A stretch of 32,932 bases of DNA from an uncultured Bacteroidales bacterium (GTDB lineage Bacteria; Bacteroidota; Bacteroidia; Bacteroidales; Bacteroidaceae), in NCBI GenBank assembly GCA_902782245.1, contig CACZMI010000017.1:1-32932 (forward strand). The letters are read 5' to 3'. Shown here in pieces: positions 13,898-32,271 of this stretch. Below the pieces are notes generated by a model, which saw only the letters and a program-made list of their open reading frames with translations, was not told the DNA's origin and ran no database searches. How positions within the stretch are numbered: position 1 is the first letter of the stretch; each line of letters starts with the position of its first letter. Position numbers and translations under genes: made by a program.

Positions 13898-13905
13898 AAA
13901 GATAC
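13898..13905 (-). promoter_or_regulatory. -7 element immediately before the GNAT gene
   Basis: On the minus strand TATCTTTG reads 13905-13898, and the proposed ATG follows 8 bases later. With the usual distance from -7 to start, the mRNA would be leaderless or nearly so. A -33 match at the usual spacing was not found. Confidence 0.45.
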
Positions 13906-13923
13906 AAAAGGAAATCAACCTCT

Positions 13924-13954
13924 TTTGCACATTGTCATTTTTGTAGTATATTCG
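13924..13954 (+). promoter_or_regulatory. Promoter of the restriction-modification leader
   Basis: TTTG (13924-13927) and TATATTCG (13947-13954) are separated by exactly 19 bases, a close match to the Bacteroidota promoter with C for T at one -7 position. Transcription would start near 13960, about 250 bases before the first methylase ATG. Confidence 0.65.
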
Positions 13955-13959
13955 CAGTA

Positions 13960-14213
13960 CAGTATCGGAACAGAAAAGATATTGTAAAGACATACTAACA
14001 TAGCATTTGCTATTTATTCGGTTACCTGAAACCTAGGAAATTTCATGAAGCCGCCGGATAAGTCAGTGAATGCCTGCGCTTGGCGTGGGTGTGACTTATT
14101 CAGGCATCGGCTTTCCTAGGGCCTCAGGTATGGATAACTGACATCCATGCCTTTTTTTATGCCCTTGGGAAGCCGATAGTAATAAGTCAGCAAGTGCGCA
14201 ATGAAAGCGCAGA
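13960..14213 (+). ncRNA. Structured leader RNA of the restriction-modification genes, with competing pairings
   Basis: This is a dense set of complementary segments. CCTAGGAAA (14032-14040) pairs with TTTCCTAGG (14112-14120), GCCG (14050-14053) with CGGC (14108-14111), and 14056-14065 with 14092-14101 (10 pairs, one G-U). ACCTGA (14024-14029) pairs with TCAGGT (14124-14129). ATGCCTG (14070-14076) can pair with CAGGCAT (14101-14107), forming an H-type pseudoknot with the 10-bp stem. A terminator hairpin follows. The segment 14169-14199 repeats 14047-14079 imperfectly (GAAGCCG, ATAAGTCAG and GCGC in the same order), so AATAAGTCA (14181-14189) is a perfect complement of 14092-14100. A last hairpin TGCGC/GCGCA (14195-14211) touches the ATG. 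This looks like a switchable regulatory leader. I do not recognise it as a known class. Confidence 0.6.
14127..14158 (+). terminator. Intrinsic terminator within the leader
   Basis: GGTATGGAT (14127-14135) pairs over 9 bp (one G-U) with ATCCATGCC (14143-14151) around a 7-base loop, followed directly by seven T (14152-14158). It shares 14127-14130 with the outer stem pairing 14023-14029 to 14124-14130, so the two cannot form together. That arrangement fits attenuation upstream of the methylase genes. Confidence 0.75.
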
Positions 14214-14855
14214 ATGGACACCCAGATCAAGTCCAAGGAGAGGGTGGCCGCTCACGGTGAGGTGTTTACCGCTCCCCGTGAGGTTAACGCCATGCTGGAC
14301 CTTGTAAAGTCGGAGACGGAGCGTATAGACTCCCGTTTCCTGGAACCCGCTTGCGGTGACGGAAATTTCCTGATAGAGATACTACGCCGTAAACTCTCTA
14401 TCTGCGGGGAGCGGGTTAAGGCAAAACAATACACTCAACTACAATATGAGCATGATGCCGTATGGGCTGTATCGAGCATCTACGGCATAGAACTGCTGGC
14501 CGATAATGTGGCCTCTTGCCGTCAGCGCCTGCTTGATTATTTCACAGAGCAATATCGCAGTCTATTCAAATCCAAATGCAAGGATGAGTGCGTAGAGGCA
14601 GCCCGATACATCCTGTCCAAGAACATAATTCACGGCGATGCGCTAACATACAAGCGCGTAGATAATCCCGGCAGTTGGATTCATGTGTGCGAGTGGAGTT
14701 TCATAGGCGGAGGCAAGGTGAGCCGCCGTGACTACGAGTTCTCTTTCCTTATAGGGCAGTACAGCAGCGACAACCTCTTTGCCGATGCGCCCGTAGAGAC
14801 CTATCCTCCTGTTCATTTCCTAAAAATCAATCCGTCAGCCTATGGAGAACAGTAG
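14214..14855 (+). CDS. Methyltransferase-like protein lacking a catalytic NPPY (R-M accessory)
   Basis: This 213-residue protein has the N-terminus GEVFTAPREVNAMLDLV, seen in N6-adenine DNA methylases, and an S-adenosylmethionine-binding motif I, FLEPACGDGNFL (residues 42-53), followed by YGIELLADNVASCRQRL. No (N/D/S)PP(Y/F) catalytic motif is present: HGDALTY is followed by a segment rich in aromatic and charged residues (WSFIGGGKVSRRDYEFSFL). It may be a SAM-binding partner subunit or a reduced paralogue of the next gene, whose N-terminus has the same EVFTxPxE layout. The two overlap by 14 bases in different frames and each has its own N-terminus, so this is not one gene split by a frameshift. 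Confidence 0.8.
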   Translation: MDTQIKSKERVAAHGEVFTAPREVNAMLDLVKSETERIDSRFLEPACGDGNFLIEILRRKLSICGERVKAKQYTQLQYEHDAVWAVSSIYGIELLADNVASCRQRLLDYFTEQYRSLFKSKCKDECVEAARYILSKNIIHGDALTYKRVDNPGSWIHVCEWSFIGGGKVSRRDYEFSFLIGQYSSDNLFADAPVETYPPVHFLKINPSAYGEQ

Positions 14856-16362
14856 TTATAATCCCGATGTGCTGAACTGCATTGCCAATCTGAGCAATGA
14901 TGAGGTTTTCACTCCACCGGAATTGGCTAACAACGTTCTGGACCTTTTGCCGCAGGAACTGTTCCGCAGCCCACAAACCACGTTTCTGGATCCGTTTACC
15001 AAGAGCGGAGTGTTCCTGCGTGAGATAGTAAAGCGTCTGGACCGGGGTCTGGAGAGTGTAATCCCGGACCGACAAGAGCGTATTGATCATATACTGCACA
15101 ATCAGGTATTCGGGATAGCATGTACCGAACTTACATCGCTCTTGTCACGCCGCTCAGTATATTGCTCCAAGAGTGCCGATGGCAAGTACAGCGTGTCCCG
15201 TTTTAAAACCCCAAGCGGCAATATCCTATATTCAAACATAAATCATACGTGGGAAGGCGGCAAGTGCAAGTACTGCGGAGCCAGCCAGGCGGTTTATGAC
15301 CGAGGCTCCGAATCAGAGCAGTACGCCTACATGTTCATTCATACCGACAATCCCACCAAATTCTTCCAAAATATGAAATTCGATGTAGTGATTGGAAATC
15401 CTCCTTACCAAATGAGTGATGGAGGCGGTATGCAAACAGAATCATCATCAGGAAGCGCTATCCCTCTTTACCAAAAGTTTGTGGAACAAGCAAAAAAACT
15501 GAAACCTAGATATTTATCAATGATTATTCCAGCAAGATGGTATTCTGGAGGGCGTGGTCTAGATGAGTTTAGAGATATGATGTTGAATGATTGTAAAATC
15601 TCTCATCTTGTTGATTATTCGGATTCAAGAGATTGTTTTCCTGGCGTAGATATAGCAGGAGGCGTGTGTTATTTCCTTTGGGATAGTGCTTACAATGGGT
15701 TATGTCACATTACAAACTATTACAAAAATACCATTCGCTTCTCAGACAGACGACTTAATGAATATCCTGTTTTTGTGAGATATTCTCAATCTATAAATAT
15801 TATACAAAAGGTTCTTAGCAAAAAAGAAAGAACAATGGACCAGAGTGTTTATAGTTCTAAACCATTTGGTTTTAGAAGTTATGAATCTGGCCATAAAATA
15901 GCGAAGCCTAATGATGTTGCAATGTTGGGGAGTAAAGGATTTACATTCGTAAATAGAGATGATGTTCGAATTAATATCCAACTAATTGATGAATGGAAAG
16001 TTGTTATGTCGAAGGCAAGTGCAGAACATGCGGGACAGACGGACAACGAAGGTAGAAAAAAAGTCATTTCTCGAATAGAGATATTAAAGCCCAATCAAAT
16101 CTGTACTGAAACATATTTGTTGCTTCGTACATTTAAAACAGAGAGAGAGGCAATTAATATGACCAACTATGCTAAAACAATGTTTTTTCGTTTCTTAATG
16201 TCTACCATTTTGTTGACTCAAAATATAGCAAGGGACAAATTCATGTTTGTTCCAATCCAGGATTTCTCACACCCATGGACAGATGAGATGCTTTACAAGA
16301 AATACGGATTGACGGAGGATGAGATTGCATTCATAGAGTCGATGATCCGACCGATGGAATAG
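14842..16362 (+). CDS. Eco57I-like N6-adenine DNA methyltransferase
   Basis: This 506-residue protein has EVFTPPELANNVLDLLP, a motif I variant FLDPFTKSGVFL (residues 48-59) and the catalytic motif GNPPYQ (NPPY at 186-189), in the order of gamma-class amino-methylases such as Eco57I. A short CKYC (142-145) sits before the catalytic motif. The second half (about 190-500) should contain the target recognition domain. Base composition changes near nucleotide 15360: the 60 bases 14941-15000 have 33 G/C, while 15961-16020 have only 20, and composition recovers near 16260. This suggests the specificity half was acquired separately. The product would methylate adenine in host DNA to protect it from the helicase-nuclease downstream. 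Confidence 0.9.
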   Translation: MENSSYNPDVLNCIANLSNDEVFTPPELANNVLDLLPQELFRSPQTTFLDPFTKSGVFLREIVKRLDRGLESVIPDRQERIDHILHNQVFGIACTELTSLLSRRSVYCSKSADGKYSVSRFKTPSGNILYSNINHTWEGGKCKYCGASQAVYDRGSESEQYAYMFIHTDNPTKFFQNMKFDVVIGNPPYQMSDGGGMQTESSSGSAIPLYQKFVEQAKKLKPRYLSMIIPARWYSGGRGLDEFRDMMLNDCKISHLVDYSDSRDCFPGVDIAGGVCYFLWDSAYNGLCHITNYYKNTIRFSDRRLNEYPVFVRYSQSINIIQKVLSKKERTMDQSVYSSKPFGFRSYESGHKIAKPNDVAMLGSKGFTFVNRDDVRINIQLIDEWKVVMSKASAEHAGQTDNEGRKKVISRIEILKPNQICTETYLLLRTFKTEREAINMTNYAKTMFFRFLMSTILLTQNIARDKFMFVPIQDFSHPWTDEMLYKKYGLTEDEIAFIESMIRPME

Positions 16363-16451: not shown

Positions 16452-16482
16452 TTTGATATTAAAAAGAATGTGTGTATCTTTG
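16452..16482 (+). promoter_or_regulatory. Promoter of the TA-like pair
   Basis: TTTG (16452-16455) and TATCTTTG (16475-16482) are 19 bases apart, an essentially perfect Bacteroidota promoter. Transcription would begin near 16489, which rules out the in-frame GTG at 16470 and supports the ATG at 16503. Confidence 0.8.
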
Positions 16483-16502
16483 CTCGTGATAAATCAATAG
16501 TC

Positions 16503-16994
16503 ATGAGAAAAGTAGAATTTGAACCCTTGTTTTTGACAGAAACCACTGATATTTTTACTATTCGAGTGGATGGAGGCGTTTCTGAGTTTGAAAAGTTCCT
16601 GTTGTTGTTCAAGGATACGGATGACCCTTTGTTGAAGGATGATTTGGAAAAGATTCTTATTGCCATTGGGAACATAAGTCAATATGGAGCATTGGAATCT
16701 TATTTCAGAATTGAAGGAAAGATGAATGACAGGATCTGTGCTATGCCATTGCTGATAAAACCAAGAGACAAGTCTAAACATGGAACCTTGAGACTGTATT
16801 GCATAAGGATTTCTGATAGACTCTTGATAGTAGGCGGTGGAGGATTGAAGGTTACAGATACCTATCAGGAGGATGAGATGATGGCCAAACATGTATCAAC
16901 TTTACAGGCTATTGATTCAAGGTTGGCAGAAGTTGAGAAATCAGGTCATGACTTACATAAAGAGTTGTTTAATATTGTTATTGAGATAGACTGA
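16503..16994 (+). CDS. Putative toxin-like (RelE/HigB-type) protein of a two-gene module
   Basis: The protein is 163 residues long from the ATG at 16503. After an N-terminal strand (EFEPLFLTETTDIFTIRVDGG) come helices (SEFEKFLLL; LKDDLEKILIAIGNISQYG). The segment RICAMPLLIKPRDKSKHGTLRLYCIRISDRLLIVGGGGLKV recalls the strands of RelE/HigB-type ribonuclease toxins. The end is helical and charged. The gene directly precedes an Xre-type regulator (one-base gap), the order of HigB-HigA modules, though it is longer than classical HigB. Alternatively it is a partner of a controller protein for the restriction system. The toxin activity is inference from pattern and context only. Confidence 0.55.
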   Translation: MRKVEFEPLFLTETTDIFTIRVDGGVSEFEKFLLLFKDTDDPLLKDDLEKILIAIGNISQYGALESYFRIEGKMNDRICAMPLLIKPRDKSKHGTLRLYCIRISDRLLIVGGGGLKVTDTYQEDEMMAKHVSTLQAIDSRLAEVEKSGHDLHKELFNIVIEID

Positions 16995-16995
16995 T

Positions 16996-17385
16996 ATGAC
17001 TAAGGTGTATTACATAGATCCCATGTTTAAGGAGGCACTGGAAAAAGTTCCCCCTGTAACTCGTAGGGAAGCTGATTTTTCGTTTGGTATTGCCAAGCGG
17101 ATTAATGATATCCTTAAAAAGAAAGGATGGTCAAAGACAGATCTTGCCAAGGCTACAGGCAAGAAAACTCCTGTTGTTACCAAGTGGATGAGTGGTATGC
17201 ATAACTTTACCATGCGTACTATAGCGGAGATTGAGGTGGCATTGGGTGAGGAGATCATAACTGTAAAACAGTACAAACCCAAGTCAACAAGACCGGCGCC
17301 CAAACCATATCAAATGACCAGGTCTGCATCACTGTACGTGAATGAGGAGCGGATTCCATACAATAAGGAACCGGATAAGGAATAG
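16996..17385 (+). CDS. Xre-family helix-turn-helix protein (antitoxin or R-M controller)
   Basis: This 129-residue protein has a Cro/CI-type helix-turn-helix at about residues 31-87: IAKRINDILKKKGWSKTDLAKATGKKTPVV, then TKWMSGMHNFTMRTIAEIEVALG. The N-terminal extension (YYIDPMFKEALEKVPPVTRREADFSFGI) is typical of HigA-like antitoxins, in which it contacts the toxin, and the basic, Pro-rich tail (KPKSTRPAPKP) is probably disordered. It could repress its own promoter at the inverted repeat 16414-16437. Its position between methylase and nuclease genes also fits a controller that delays nuclease expression. The helicase-nuclease starts 43 bases downstream with no obvious promoter. Confidence 0.85.
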   Translation: MTKVYYIDPMFKEALEKVPPVTRREADFSFGIAKRINDILKKKGWSKTDLAKATGKKTPVVTKWMSGMHNFTMRTIAEIEVALGEEIITVKQYKPKSTRPAPKPYQMTRSASLYVNEERIPYNKEPDKE

Positions 17386-17428: not shown

Positions 17429-20173
17429 ATGGCTGCTACTGATTTGCTTAGGGAGAAGGTCGCTGAGGCCCCTATGATTTATGCATACGAGCATATTGGC
17501 GTTCCGGTTCATGAAGGGATGCTTAAGGTGGGTTATACCACTCGTGATGTGGAGACCCGTGTGCGGGAGCAGAACCAGACAAATAGTGTCCGGTATAGGA
17601 TTGTACTCAAGAGACCGGCCATGCGTAAGGATGGGACATCGTTTGATGACCATCTTATTCATAAGATATTGCGCAAGAATCATGTGCGTAATCCGGAGGG
17701 AGAGTGGTTTGTTACTGATGCAGAAACTGTAGAAAGGGCTATTGCATCGGCTGTAGAAGGTCATGAAACCATAATAAGTAGAACCAACTCATTCCGCATG
17801 CGTCCGGAGCAGGAGGCGGCGGTCAGTAAGACATCGGCCTACTTCAAGGCTTTTGTAAAAGACCCTGCAAACCGAGGGCTCATTCCGCATTTCCTCTGGA
17901 ACGCCAAGATGCGTTTTGGCAAGACATTCACCACATATCAGCTGGCGCTGCGTATGGGGTGGACCAAGGTTCTGGTGCTTACTTTCAAGCCTGCGGTAAA
18001 GACCGCCTGGGAGGAGGATCTGGCTACCCATAAGGATTTTGAGGGCTGGCAGTTCTGCCAGAAACAGGATGACCGCGAGTTCAACTATGTGAACGAGCGC
18101 AAGCCGTTTGTCTGTTTTGCATCGTTCCAGGATGTGCTGGGCAAGAATGCGGTAGGGGGCATTAAGGCTACAAATGAATGGATCCAGACAGTTGACTGGG
18201 ATTGCATAGTGCTAGACGAGTATCATTATGGCGCCTGGGGAAGGAATGCCAAGAACTTTTATGATAAGAAAGACCCGGCGCTGATGCGTGCGCTTGAGGT
18301 GGGTGATATCATAAATGAGGATGCCGATAATGTGCGTGAAATTGAGGCCCGCGAGATGTATGATGAGGAGCTGATGCCGCTGCGCACTCATGCGTATCTG
18401 TATCTGTCGGGAACGCCATTCCGTGCCATATCAACGGGTGAATTCATAGAGGAGCAGATATACAACTGGACATATTCCGATGAGCAACGTTCCAAAGAGG
18501 CTTGGAGAGGGCCGGATAATCCATACGCCCAACTGCCCAAGATGGTGATGCTCACATATCAACTGCCGGACAGCATCCGCGAGATAGCATCGCAGGGCGA
18601 GTTTGACGAGTTTGACCTGAACGAGTTTTTCCGTGCCGATGACAAAGGTTTCATTCATGAGGAGTATGTGCAGAAATGGCTTGACCTGATACGCGGCGCA
18701 TACACTGAGAACATTGTCACTGAACTGAAACTGGGAACAGAGAAACCGCCGATGCCGTTCTCCGATGCCCGTCTGCTAAGTTACCTGCAACATACATACT
18801 GGTTTCTGCCATCGGTTGCAGCATGTGAGGCTATGGCCAGACTGCTTGAAAAGCGTGTGAACCGTTTTTATTCTGATTACCGTGTGATAGTTGCTGCTGG
18901 AAACAGGGCCGGTATGGGTGCCGCTGCGGTAGGTCCGGTGTATGAGGCCATGAATGATCCGCAGGAGAGTAAGACCATAACCCTGTCTTGCGGCAAACTA
19001 TCCACAGGCGTAACCGTTAAACCCTGGACCGGAATACTGATGCTCCGTAACACCACATCGCCCGAGACCTATTTCCAGGCTGCTTTCCGTGTTCAGTCAC
19101 CCTGGACCACCTGTGATGAGAACGGCAATGAGGTGATTCTAAAACCGCTCTGTTACGTGTTTGACTTTGCACCCAACCGTGCCCTGCGTTTGGTAGAGGA
19201 GTACAGCTGCCAGCTTAACGTGCATGAATCCAACCCGGAAAAGAAAGTAGAGGAATTCATAAAGTTCCTGCCTATCCTTGCGTTCGATGGTTCATCCATG
19301 AAGGAGATTGATGCCGCCGGAGTACTTGATATGGCTATGAGCGGCACTACGGCAACATTGCTTGCCCGCAGATGGGAATCGGCCGTACTGGTAAATGTAG
19401 ATAATGCCACCCTGCAACGCTTGATGAACAATCCCGATGCAATGCGTGCCCTGATGAACATTGAGGGATTCCGCAGCCTGAACGCAGATATTGAGACCAT
19501 AATCAACAAGTCAGAGAAGGTAAAGAATACCAAGAAAGAACGTGGCGATGACCTTACTCCGCGCGAGAAGAAAGAGCTGTCCGATGAGGAGAAGGAGTAT
19601 AAGAGCAAGCGTCGTGAGATTCAGGAGAAACTCATAAAGTTTGCCACCCGCATCCCTGTATTTATGTACCTGACCGATTTCCGCGAATACTCACTGCGTG
19701 ATGTGATAGAACAGCTGGAACCGGAACTTTTCCGCAAGGTGACAGGCCTTACACTAAAGGATTTCAGCCTGCTTGTAAGCTTGGGGGTATTCAATAGCGA
19801 GCTGATGAACGATGCCGTCTATAAGTTCAAACGCTATGAGGATTCATCGCTTGAATATACCGGTATTAACACCCATACAGGCACCCTGATAGGAGGTTGG
19901 GATACTGTCATTGATACTTCAAAGTCAATAATGGAAGATAGAAACAATGAGGATTATAAGAAGGTTGCAGATTCTTCTCCAAAATTGGAAAGAATCCAAC
20001 CTTGGGATAATATCTTAGTTGGTGATGTCGTCTTTCATAAGAGTTTAGGTCAAGGGGTAGTGACTTCTGTGGATGATAAATACATTTTTGCGAAATTTCC
20101 TCTGCGTGAGTCTAAGTTTCAGTATCCGGATGCTTTTGAAAGAGGATTTCTTGCAATGAAAGAATTCTCTTAA
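17429..20173 (+). CDS. Restriction helicase-nuclease: GIY-YIG/T5orf172-type domain fused to SF2 helicase
   Basis: This 914-residue protein has an N-terminal domain (about residues 15-110) of the GIY-YIG/T5orf172 type: IYAYEHIGVP, GMLKVGYTTRDVETRVREQ, and the late acidic residue in GEWFVTDAE (Glu92). The superfamily-2 helicase core follows, with motif I variant MRFGKT (161-166), VLVLTFKPAVKTAW, DEYH box (263-266), SGTPFR (327-332) and a motif VI-like QAAFRVQSPW near 550. A charged coiled stretch lies near 690-735. The last 51 residues (864-914, VGDVVFHKSLGQGVVTSV) look like the SH3-like tail of UvrD-type helicases. Lines 19921-19980 and 19981-20040 have only 20 G/C in 60, against 31 at 19321-19380, so the tail composition differs from the core. 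It probably translocates on and cuts unmethylated DNA. The gene starts at ATG 17429 after AAAAGGAT. Confidence 0.88.
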   Translation: MAATDLLREKVAEAPMIYAYEHIGVPVHEGMLKVGYTTRDVETRVREQNQTNSVRYRIVLKRPAMRKDGTSFDDHLIHKILRKNHVRNPEGEWFVTDAETVERAIASAVEGHETIISRTNSFRMRPEQEAAVSKTSAYFKAFVKDPANRGLIPHFLWNAKMRFGKTFTTYQLALRMGWTKVLVLTFKPAVKTAWEEDLATHKDFEGWQFCQKQDDREFNYVNERKPFVCFASFQDVLGKNAVGGIKATNEWIQTVDWDCIVLDEYHYGAWGRNAKNFYDKKDPALMRALEVGDIINEDADNVREIEAREMYDEELMPLRTHAYLYLSGTPFRAISTGEFIEEQIYNWTYSDEQRSKEAWRGPDNPYAQLPKMVMLTYQLPDSIREIASQGEFDEFDLNEFFRADDKGFIHEEYVQKWLDLIRGAYTENIVTELKLGTEKPPMPFSDARLLSYLQHTYWFLPSVAACEAMARLLEKRVNRFYSDYRVIVAAGNRAGMGAAAVGPVYEAMNDPQESKTITLSCGKLSTGVTVKPWTGILMLRNTTSPETYFQAAFRVQSPWTTCDENGNEVILKPLCYVFDFAPNRALRLVEEYSCQLNVHESNPEKKVEEFIKFLPILAFDGSSMKEIDAAGVLDMAMSGTTATLLARRWESAVLVNVDNATLQRLMNNPDAMRALMNIEGFRSLNADIETIINKSEKVKNTKKERGDDLTPREKKELSDEEKEYKSKRREIQEKLIKFATRIPVFMYLTDFREYSLRDVIEQLEPELFRKVTGLTLKDFSLLVSLGVFNSELMNDAVYKFKRYEDSSLEYTGINTHTGTLIGGWDTVIDTSKSIMEDRNNEDYKKVADSSPKLERIQPWDNILVGDVVFHKSLGQGVVTSVDDKYIFAKFPLRESKFQYPDAFERGFLAMKEFS

Positions 20174-32197: not shown

Positions 32198-32271
32198 GGG
32201 CTTTTAGCTCAGTTGGTTAGAGCAACAGACTCATAATCTGGAGGTCCTAGGTTCAAGCCCTAGATGGCCCA
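32198..32271 (+). tRNA. tRNA-Met (anticodon CAU; elongator-type, Ile-CAU not excluded)
   Basis: A 74-nt cloverleaf can be traced: acceptor GGGCTTT/ATGGCCC, D-arm GCTC/GAGC, and anticodon loop CTCATAA with CAT at 32232-32234. The variable loop has five bases and the T-arm is CTAGG/CCTAG around TTCAAGC, with discriminator A32271. CCA is not encoded. There are two mismatches, T-T at the sixth acceptor pair and A-G closing the anticodon stem. It lacks the GC-rich anticodon stem of initiator tRNA. A CAU anticodon can also belong to lysidine-modified tRNA-Ile. Confidence 0.92.

Follow-up and report, generated by a model that had tools for sequence, protein, structure and literature searches.

A structured leader RNA with mutually exclusive pairings, probably a bistable attenuator, upstream of a split restriction-modification operon and of unrelated genes in Bacteroidia

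The 5' leader of a split type IIG-like restriction-modification (R-M) operon in an uncultured Bacteroidales bacterium is probably a bistable attenuator RNA that acts in cis and belongs to an uncatalogued family (estimated probability about 0.7), in which a core of four helices, P1-P4, would represent the ON state; the pairings behind this reading come from comparison, and its ON and OFF steps are those which we infer. The leader was analysed within a window, i.e., the whole stretch of 32,932 nucleotides of contig CACZMI010000017.1, and all features described here lie on the forward strand. An earlier note on the window had proposed a switch-like geometry at this place, which is borne out by compensatory changes in both the core and the mutually exclusive pairings.

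Results

Promoter and structured leader occupy positions 13947-14213 of the window, with about 250 nt of leader between a promoter-like pair of elements and the operon (start sites in this analysis are based on ORFs). The pair consists of TTTG at 13924-13927 and, after 19 nt, the -7-like element TATATTCG at 13947-13954, which we take to be a promoter from its fit to the known consensus; transcription would then start at around 13960. The motif TAnnTT[TC]G is present in 33 of 36 non-redundant orthologous leaders within the 130 nt 5' of the core, at distances of 34 to 119 nt, compared to 8.9% of shuffles, and the well-spaced promoter of the earlier note is retained on these grounds. The operon starts at 14214, 3' of the leader, with the first of two methylase parts, confirming the position before R-M genes that had been assigned to the leader. 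It encodes the N-terminal part of a methyltransferase (14214-14855, 213 aa, with a Pfam match that stays under the curated cut-off), an Eco57I-type methyltransferase (14842-16362, 506 aa), two small proteins of 174 and 129 aa matching the PADLOC candidates PDC-M64B/C (16470-17385) and a 914-aa protein (17429-20173) that contains T5orf172 and matches a model for type IIG restriction enzyme-methyltransferases over the model positions 179-803. None of 200 shuffled sequences folds as well as the leader (z -6.7).

Homologues of the leader were first found as scattered blastn matches in 301 genomes of the same family. The covariance model R1 was built from the core (14000-14130) of 17 of the 20 loci L082-L101 aligned with MAFFT, L084, L092 and L100, in which part of the core is absent, being excluded by eye. 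The model derives from the window's leader, so that high scores are biased to the R-M branch, and the E-values that it gives are approximate. Of the 80 loci retrieved with the methylase protein, 66 have an R1 match 5' of this methylase, one of them (L059) in a MAG labelled Clostridia, and all 67 matches from methylase loci and the window are in sense orientation. The 14 loci without a match comprise five from genomes labelled as other phyla, three cut by contig ends near the methylase and six from Bacteroidales, and an unfiltered recheck of the five and the six with R1 yielded nothing below an E-value of 1. At an E-value of 0.001, R1 matches were obtained in the family from 205 of 298 genomes, in the order from 77 of 247 and in the phylum from 22 of 296 (the window's own genome being included in each count), with up to 13 in one genome and a single copy in that of the window; no match was found at an E-value of 1 in five genomes from other phyla. 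The leader at L034 (genome G133) is 90% identical to that of the window, compared to 77% and 56% for the corresponding methylase parts. A blastn search with the leader DNA at an E-value of 0.01 gave no match among plasmid or phage records.

Several individual copies show deviating arrangements. Two R1 matches stand in tandem within approximately 340 nt at L211:257-596 and L219:1294-1629. The copy at L116:1501-1646, the same place as L092, is intact through P2 and devoid of the P1 3' strand and the terminator, with an ORF resembling a C5-methylase beginning 4 nt past the match. At L084:1501-1557, in a genome of the same genus, the match (95% identity) is limited to the initial 57 nt of the transcript and is followed by a different hairpin, perhaps representing a remnant. 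One of two copies in IMG/VR contigs (L336 and L337), at L337:2242-2375, lies right before an ORF whose start looks, by eye, like that of an EcoRI-type methylase.

The core follows segment 1 (14000-14022), which is composed of a small hairpin and UUUAUUCGG. P1 is formed by 14023-14029 and 14124-14130 and P2 by 14032-14038 and 14114-14120, both as judged from covariation. The 5' strand of P3 (14049-14055) pairs with 14103-14105 and 14109-14112 in the predicted fold of the window, and P4 contains a lower stem with its 5' strand at 14056-14065, within segment 2, and an upper stem with its 5' strand at 14071-14079; P3 and the upper stem are assigned from predicted folds together with covariation in the family. 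The 3' strand of P4 (14083-14101) is referred to as strand 3. In 100 sequences aligned by fitting to the covariance model, 40 of the 43 pairs of P1-P4 show double changes and 93.9% of the cells are paired, values of pairing and covariation that none of 500 shuffles reached and that also exceed those of slid controls; for P2 with its seven model pairs, pairing amounts to 99.7%. These compensatory changes are of the kind that the earlier note had proposed to look for, and they include its outer stem 14023-14029/14124-14130, which is identical to P1, while its stem 14056-14065/14092-14101 recurs as the lower stem of P4, paired in 94% of cells (206 of 219) in 22 orthologues. RNAalifold predicted 34 pairs, 29 of them with double changes, from 96 sequences likewise fitted to the model. 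In the MAFFT alignment of 17 leaders, which is not model-fitted, 30 of 44 pairs are double-changed in a structure drawn by the analyst from these leaders themselves, and P3 is the weakest helix with 68.9% pairing.

The strongest covariation outside the model helices in the 100 sequences joins two short strands flanking the 3' strand of P2 (P2b), which read GGU:ACC in 38 and GGC:GCC in 36 of them and show full swaps in single cases, e.g., ACC:GGU or AGU:ACU. The corresponding pairing in the window (14109-14123) connects GGC at 14109-14111 with GCC at 14121-14123. Counted as four pairs, this GGY:RCC pseudoknot is 87% paired and has double changes in 52 cells; its two outer pairs fail in about one fifth of the sequences. 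The GGY strand is separated from P2b by 1-5 nt, mostly 2-3 nt, which would fit the geometry of an H-type pseudoknot spanning a 7-bp helix. Since GGC 14109-14111 is also used by P3 in the predicted fold of the window, P3 and the pseudoknot may alternate there. A different H-type pseudoknot, between 14070-14076 and 14101-14107, had been suggested in the earlier note and is rejected, because it is paired in 49.0% of cells and 402 of 500 column shuffles do equally well or better.

A predicted intrinsic terminator, read from the sequence and conserved in orthologues, follows the core at 14127-14158, consisting of a hairpin (14127-14151; 94% paired with 22 double-changed cells in 22 orthologues) and seven T residues (14152-14158). 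Its 5' base at 14127-14130 is shared with the 3' strand of P1, as had been noticed before, and hairpin and T run lie between promoter and gene, as in attenuators with intrinsic terminators. Of 169 leaders, 105 have a run of five T located 10-50 nt past the core, whereas 13 have one at 60-100 nt, and 26 of 168 have one upstream; no run is present at 10-50 nt in the other 64 of the 169, and only 31 of 71 leaders of the family sample carry one there. In a compact subgroup (L037, L041, L054 etc.), the start codon of the methylase directly follows the T run and the terminator arm coincides with the start site. Beyond the terminator, segment 4 (14161-14180) is complementary to 14104-14122 (P3b-P2b), and segment 2'' (14181-14199), directly 5' of the start codon, may pair with either strand 3 or segment 1. 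Strand 3 has three potential partners, i.e., segment 2, the terminator arm 14132-14151 and segment 2''. The pairing of segment 1 with segment 2 (14003-14022 with 14053-14073) is present in 90% of cells with double changes at 12 of 14 pairs, that of strand 3 with the terminator arm in 91% with 21 double-changed cells, and that of 14092-14100 with 14181-14189, an alternative already seen in the earlier note, in 87% (135 of 156 cells, 22 orthologues).

These alternatives were also assessed by an alignment-free permutation test, in which the fit of strands within the same leader is compared to their fit with strands of other leaders, using 36, 40 and 40 of the 37, 71 and 61 non-redundant leaders of three samples. 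For four alternative pairings in three samples, none of 20000 permutations reached the own fit in 11 of the 12 tests, and 15 of 20000 did so in the twelfth. The z values are -11.0, -13.1 and -8.2 for P3b-P2b-P1b with the stretch downstream of the terminator, -9.6, -8.1 and -11.0 for strand 3 with the terminator arm, -9.1, -8.3 and -7.9 for segment 1 with segment 2, and -7.2, -9.8 and -3.2 for segment 1 with the downstream stretch. Related leaders have a common history, which is equally contained in the two negative controls (upstream DNA and same-sense strands), whose z values range from -0.2 to +2.2. The effect is weaker per leader: the own P3b-P1b fit is within the best 5% for 38%, 53% and 33% of the leaders, and the corresponding shares for segment 1 paired with the downstream stretch are 8%, 16% and 9%. 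No excess of own fit was found in the three samples between terminator arm and downstream stretch (z -0.2, -0.2 and -1.4). In seven leaders of the surface-protein branch (L261, L264-L268 and L271), the arm (AGUCCC, AGUUCC, AAACCC etc.) matches a stretch like GGGACU, GGAACU or GGGUUU a little 5' of the start codon; these changes agree by eye, and the pooled permutation test on other leaders is without such an excess.

According to predicted folding energies, the core is the best fold of a transcript ending at 14130. At 14158, P1 plus a shortened hairpin (-68.8 kcal/mol) and the full terminator without P1 (-70.3 kcal/mol) are within 1.5 kcal/mol of each other, with P2-P4 present in both. At full length, an alternative fold (-98.8) is predicted to be more stable than the core fold (-86.2); it pairs 14003-14022 with 14053-14073, 14090-14100 with 14181-14192 and 14104-14122 with 14161-14180, and its pairing extends to 14212, beside the start codon at 14214. 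The full-length core fold instead joins segment 1 to 14171-14176 and 14182-14197. Because the partners swap between the core and the alternative folds, there are two ways of matching strands 1 and 3 with strands 2 and 2''.

The genes following the RNA were inspected at 96 loci of the family and 67 of the order, taken from the listed and mostly best-scoring matches; two duplicate loci and two second matches of tandems had been dropped from the order sample. L190 has no ORF start within 500 nt and three loci of the order sample have none, leaving 95 and 64 first ORFs, of which 67 and 42, respectively, begin 60-140 nt past the RNA among the matches listed. Clusters of R-M or SNF2-type defence proteins account for 55 of the 95 first ORFs from the family among the matches listed; this number is a sum of phmmer clusters named with Pfam (15+12+9+7+6+3+2+1) that includes a cluster of six resembling the first ORFs before the same methylase and the single L174, counted by its methylase motif. 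Others among the 95, as assigned with Pfam, are acyltransferases (five), BspA-type LRR proteins (four) and PAP2 proteins (three). Por_Secre_tail (six) and LRR_5 (five) are most frequent among the 64 first ORFs of the order sample, where DNA methylases are a minority (methylase motif in eight, one probably by chance). The first genes do not indicate a single pathway, and the RNA is not special to R-M operons, contrary to what the earlier note had implied, since unrelated genes for surface and secreted proteins also follow it.

Other R-M loci of the same family carry the RNA infrequently. It was present at none of 30 retrieved HsdM_N loci (out of 66 listed) and at four of 30 retrieved EcoRI-type methylase loci (out of 33 listed), some of these loci being cut by contig ends, and a generic R-M leader is rejected on the basis of these values. 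As judged from coordinates, at least four of the 66 HsdM_N places do carry the RNA (G023:C23, G023:C21, G049:C36 and G049:C10). The RNA is therefore strongly linked to R-M genes where the operon is of the window's type, and occurs sporadically with the two further methylase families that were sampled.

Discussion

The core may be assigned to the ON state, allowing read-through and translation, and the alternative fold to the OFF state, as suggested by geometry and by energies calculated without pseudoknot terms. If P1 is formed, it would withhold the base of the terminator hairpin, so that RNA polymerase reads through, and would leave the RNA beside the start codon open; if P1 is lost, the terminator would form. 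Segment 1 might alternatively take over segment 2 and thereby free strand 3, and the stretch before the start codon would then be buried in the full-length mRNA. Any ligand, protein or RNA stabilising the core would turn on the gene. A conserved structured core in a 5' leader and mutually exclusive pairings in the expression platform, as known from riboswitches, are both present.

It is conceivable, although we regard it as rather doubtful, that these leaders constitute a new sensory RNA class across Bacteroidia, in which one shared signal turns on phage-defence as well as surface and secreted-protein genes and one strand exchange governs both termination and translation. Copies preceding surface-protein genes point to a regulon with a common signal. 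Terminated leaders could in addition act in trans on sister leaders, because strand 3 of another leader can also serve as partner of the terminator arm (consensus GUCCACGC), albeit a less good one (-18 to -21 kcal/mol, which are permuted means from the permutation test, compared to -24 to -26 kcal/mol for the own strand). To our knowledge, few regulatory RNAs are known in these bacteria. The leader is widespread without matching Rfam 15 at gathering score, would offer an answer at the RNA level to the question of what might hold some restriction systems in the off state and then turn them on, and is defined precisely enough for testing in laboratory Bacteroides.

Other explanations of the conserved structure have to be weighed against the bistable attenuator. 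Promoter-like element, structure and terminator together make up a unit of about 200 nt, as would be expected of an independent trans-acting small RNA that lies upstream by chance and ends at the terminator, with the operon using its own promoter. This is unlikely, since the leader-specific pairings reach beyond the terminator toward the start codon, and the compact subgroup has its start codon directly after the T run. A DNA-level element, such as a recombination, integration or replication site conserved as a single-strand hairpin and without any regulatory RNA, would agree with the several scattered copies per genome before unrelated accessory genes and with the two copies in IMG/VR contigs. 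However, G-U is more frequent than A-C at paired positions (304 versus 52, or 125 versus 50 with the P4 upper stem excluded), indicating that the sense strand is what is selected, and the promoter-like element 5' and T runs 3' of the core, the uniform sense orientation of the 67 matches and the spacing to the next ORF likewise speak against such an element, which appears highly improbable. Both of these explanations are disfavoured by the G-U bias, the spacing and the pairings past the terminator.

Control of the operon by a C-like protein, with the leader merely stabilising the mRNA, would be consistent with the HTH regulator gene of the Cro/C1 type that is contained in the operon (16996-17385, the second of the two small ORFs, 129 aa); it would leave the covarying and mutually exclusive pairings unaccounted for and is only marginally probable, somewhat less so than a separate small RNA and more so than a DNA element. 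The least probable alternative is attenuation by a leader peptide with a translating ribosome as sensor. The order of pairings, 1:2, 2:3 and 3:terminator arm, is that of the trp attenuator, and a 24-codon ORF is present inside the leader at 14045-14119, but its ATG is found in only two of 22 aligned leaders (the window included) and no ATG occurs from 13955 to 14003; a conserved leader peptide is rejected accordingly. The bistable attenuator RNA remains the preferred reading.

The RNA matches no described class in Rfam 15 at gathering scores, in line with the earlier note, where its fold was not recognised as one. Searching the whole window at gathering scores yielded only a distant tRNA at 32198, and 40 locus sequences with members of the family gave no described class for this RNA. 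Three far sub-threshold hits to eukaryotic families were obtained for 13900-14300 at E-values up to 10, the best of which, mir-355, reaches 24.5 of 70.3 bits. On the basis of these searches of window, leader and loci, the RNA is not regarded as a known Rfam RNA. No description of the RNA was recognised in the literature searched, which comprised articles without their supplements, nor in passages of PMC8040213, PMC2864571, PMC10994844 and PMC7366714. The candidate HMP2_4205 (Fremin and Bhatt, 2021; PMC8040213) is described there as a 132-bp element, mostly from Bacteroidetes, with a predicted Rho-independent terminator and located near TPR genes. TPR proteins are encoded by two of the 95 first ORFs among the matches listed here, and the HMP2_4205 section of that article mentions neither a switch nor a link to R-M systems; this comparison is one of descriptions rather than sequences.

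The DUF805 RNA (RF03081) is likewise an Rfam cis-regulatory family from Bacteroidales leaders, but differs from the RNA described here in sequence and fold, and its model matches neither the window nor the leader. It starts 69-156 nt 3' of this RNA in four of 59 places from 20 genomes, forming tandem leader elements (L241:3360-3428, L245:1091-1156, G609:C9:68879-68944 and G565:C121:704-773), and the other 55 places adjoin no copy among the matches listed.

In the logic of the trp attenuator, pairing 1:2 leaves strand 3 to the terminator arm and pairing 2:3 excludes both. The same opposition is seen here between segment 1:2 together with strand 3:terminator arm on one side and 2:3 on the other, but the RNA is without a conserved leader peptide and has extra helices and a pseudoknot in its core. 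Riboswitches of the pbuE adenine type are examples in which P1 competes with a terminator. As in these, a long-range P1 closes a multi-helix core, has bases in common with the terminator and gives rise to mutually exclusive folds. The RNA differs from them in giving no Rfam match at gathering score, and in that a 5' segment and the segment before the start codon also take part in the strand exchange.
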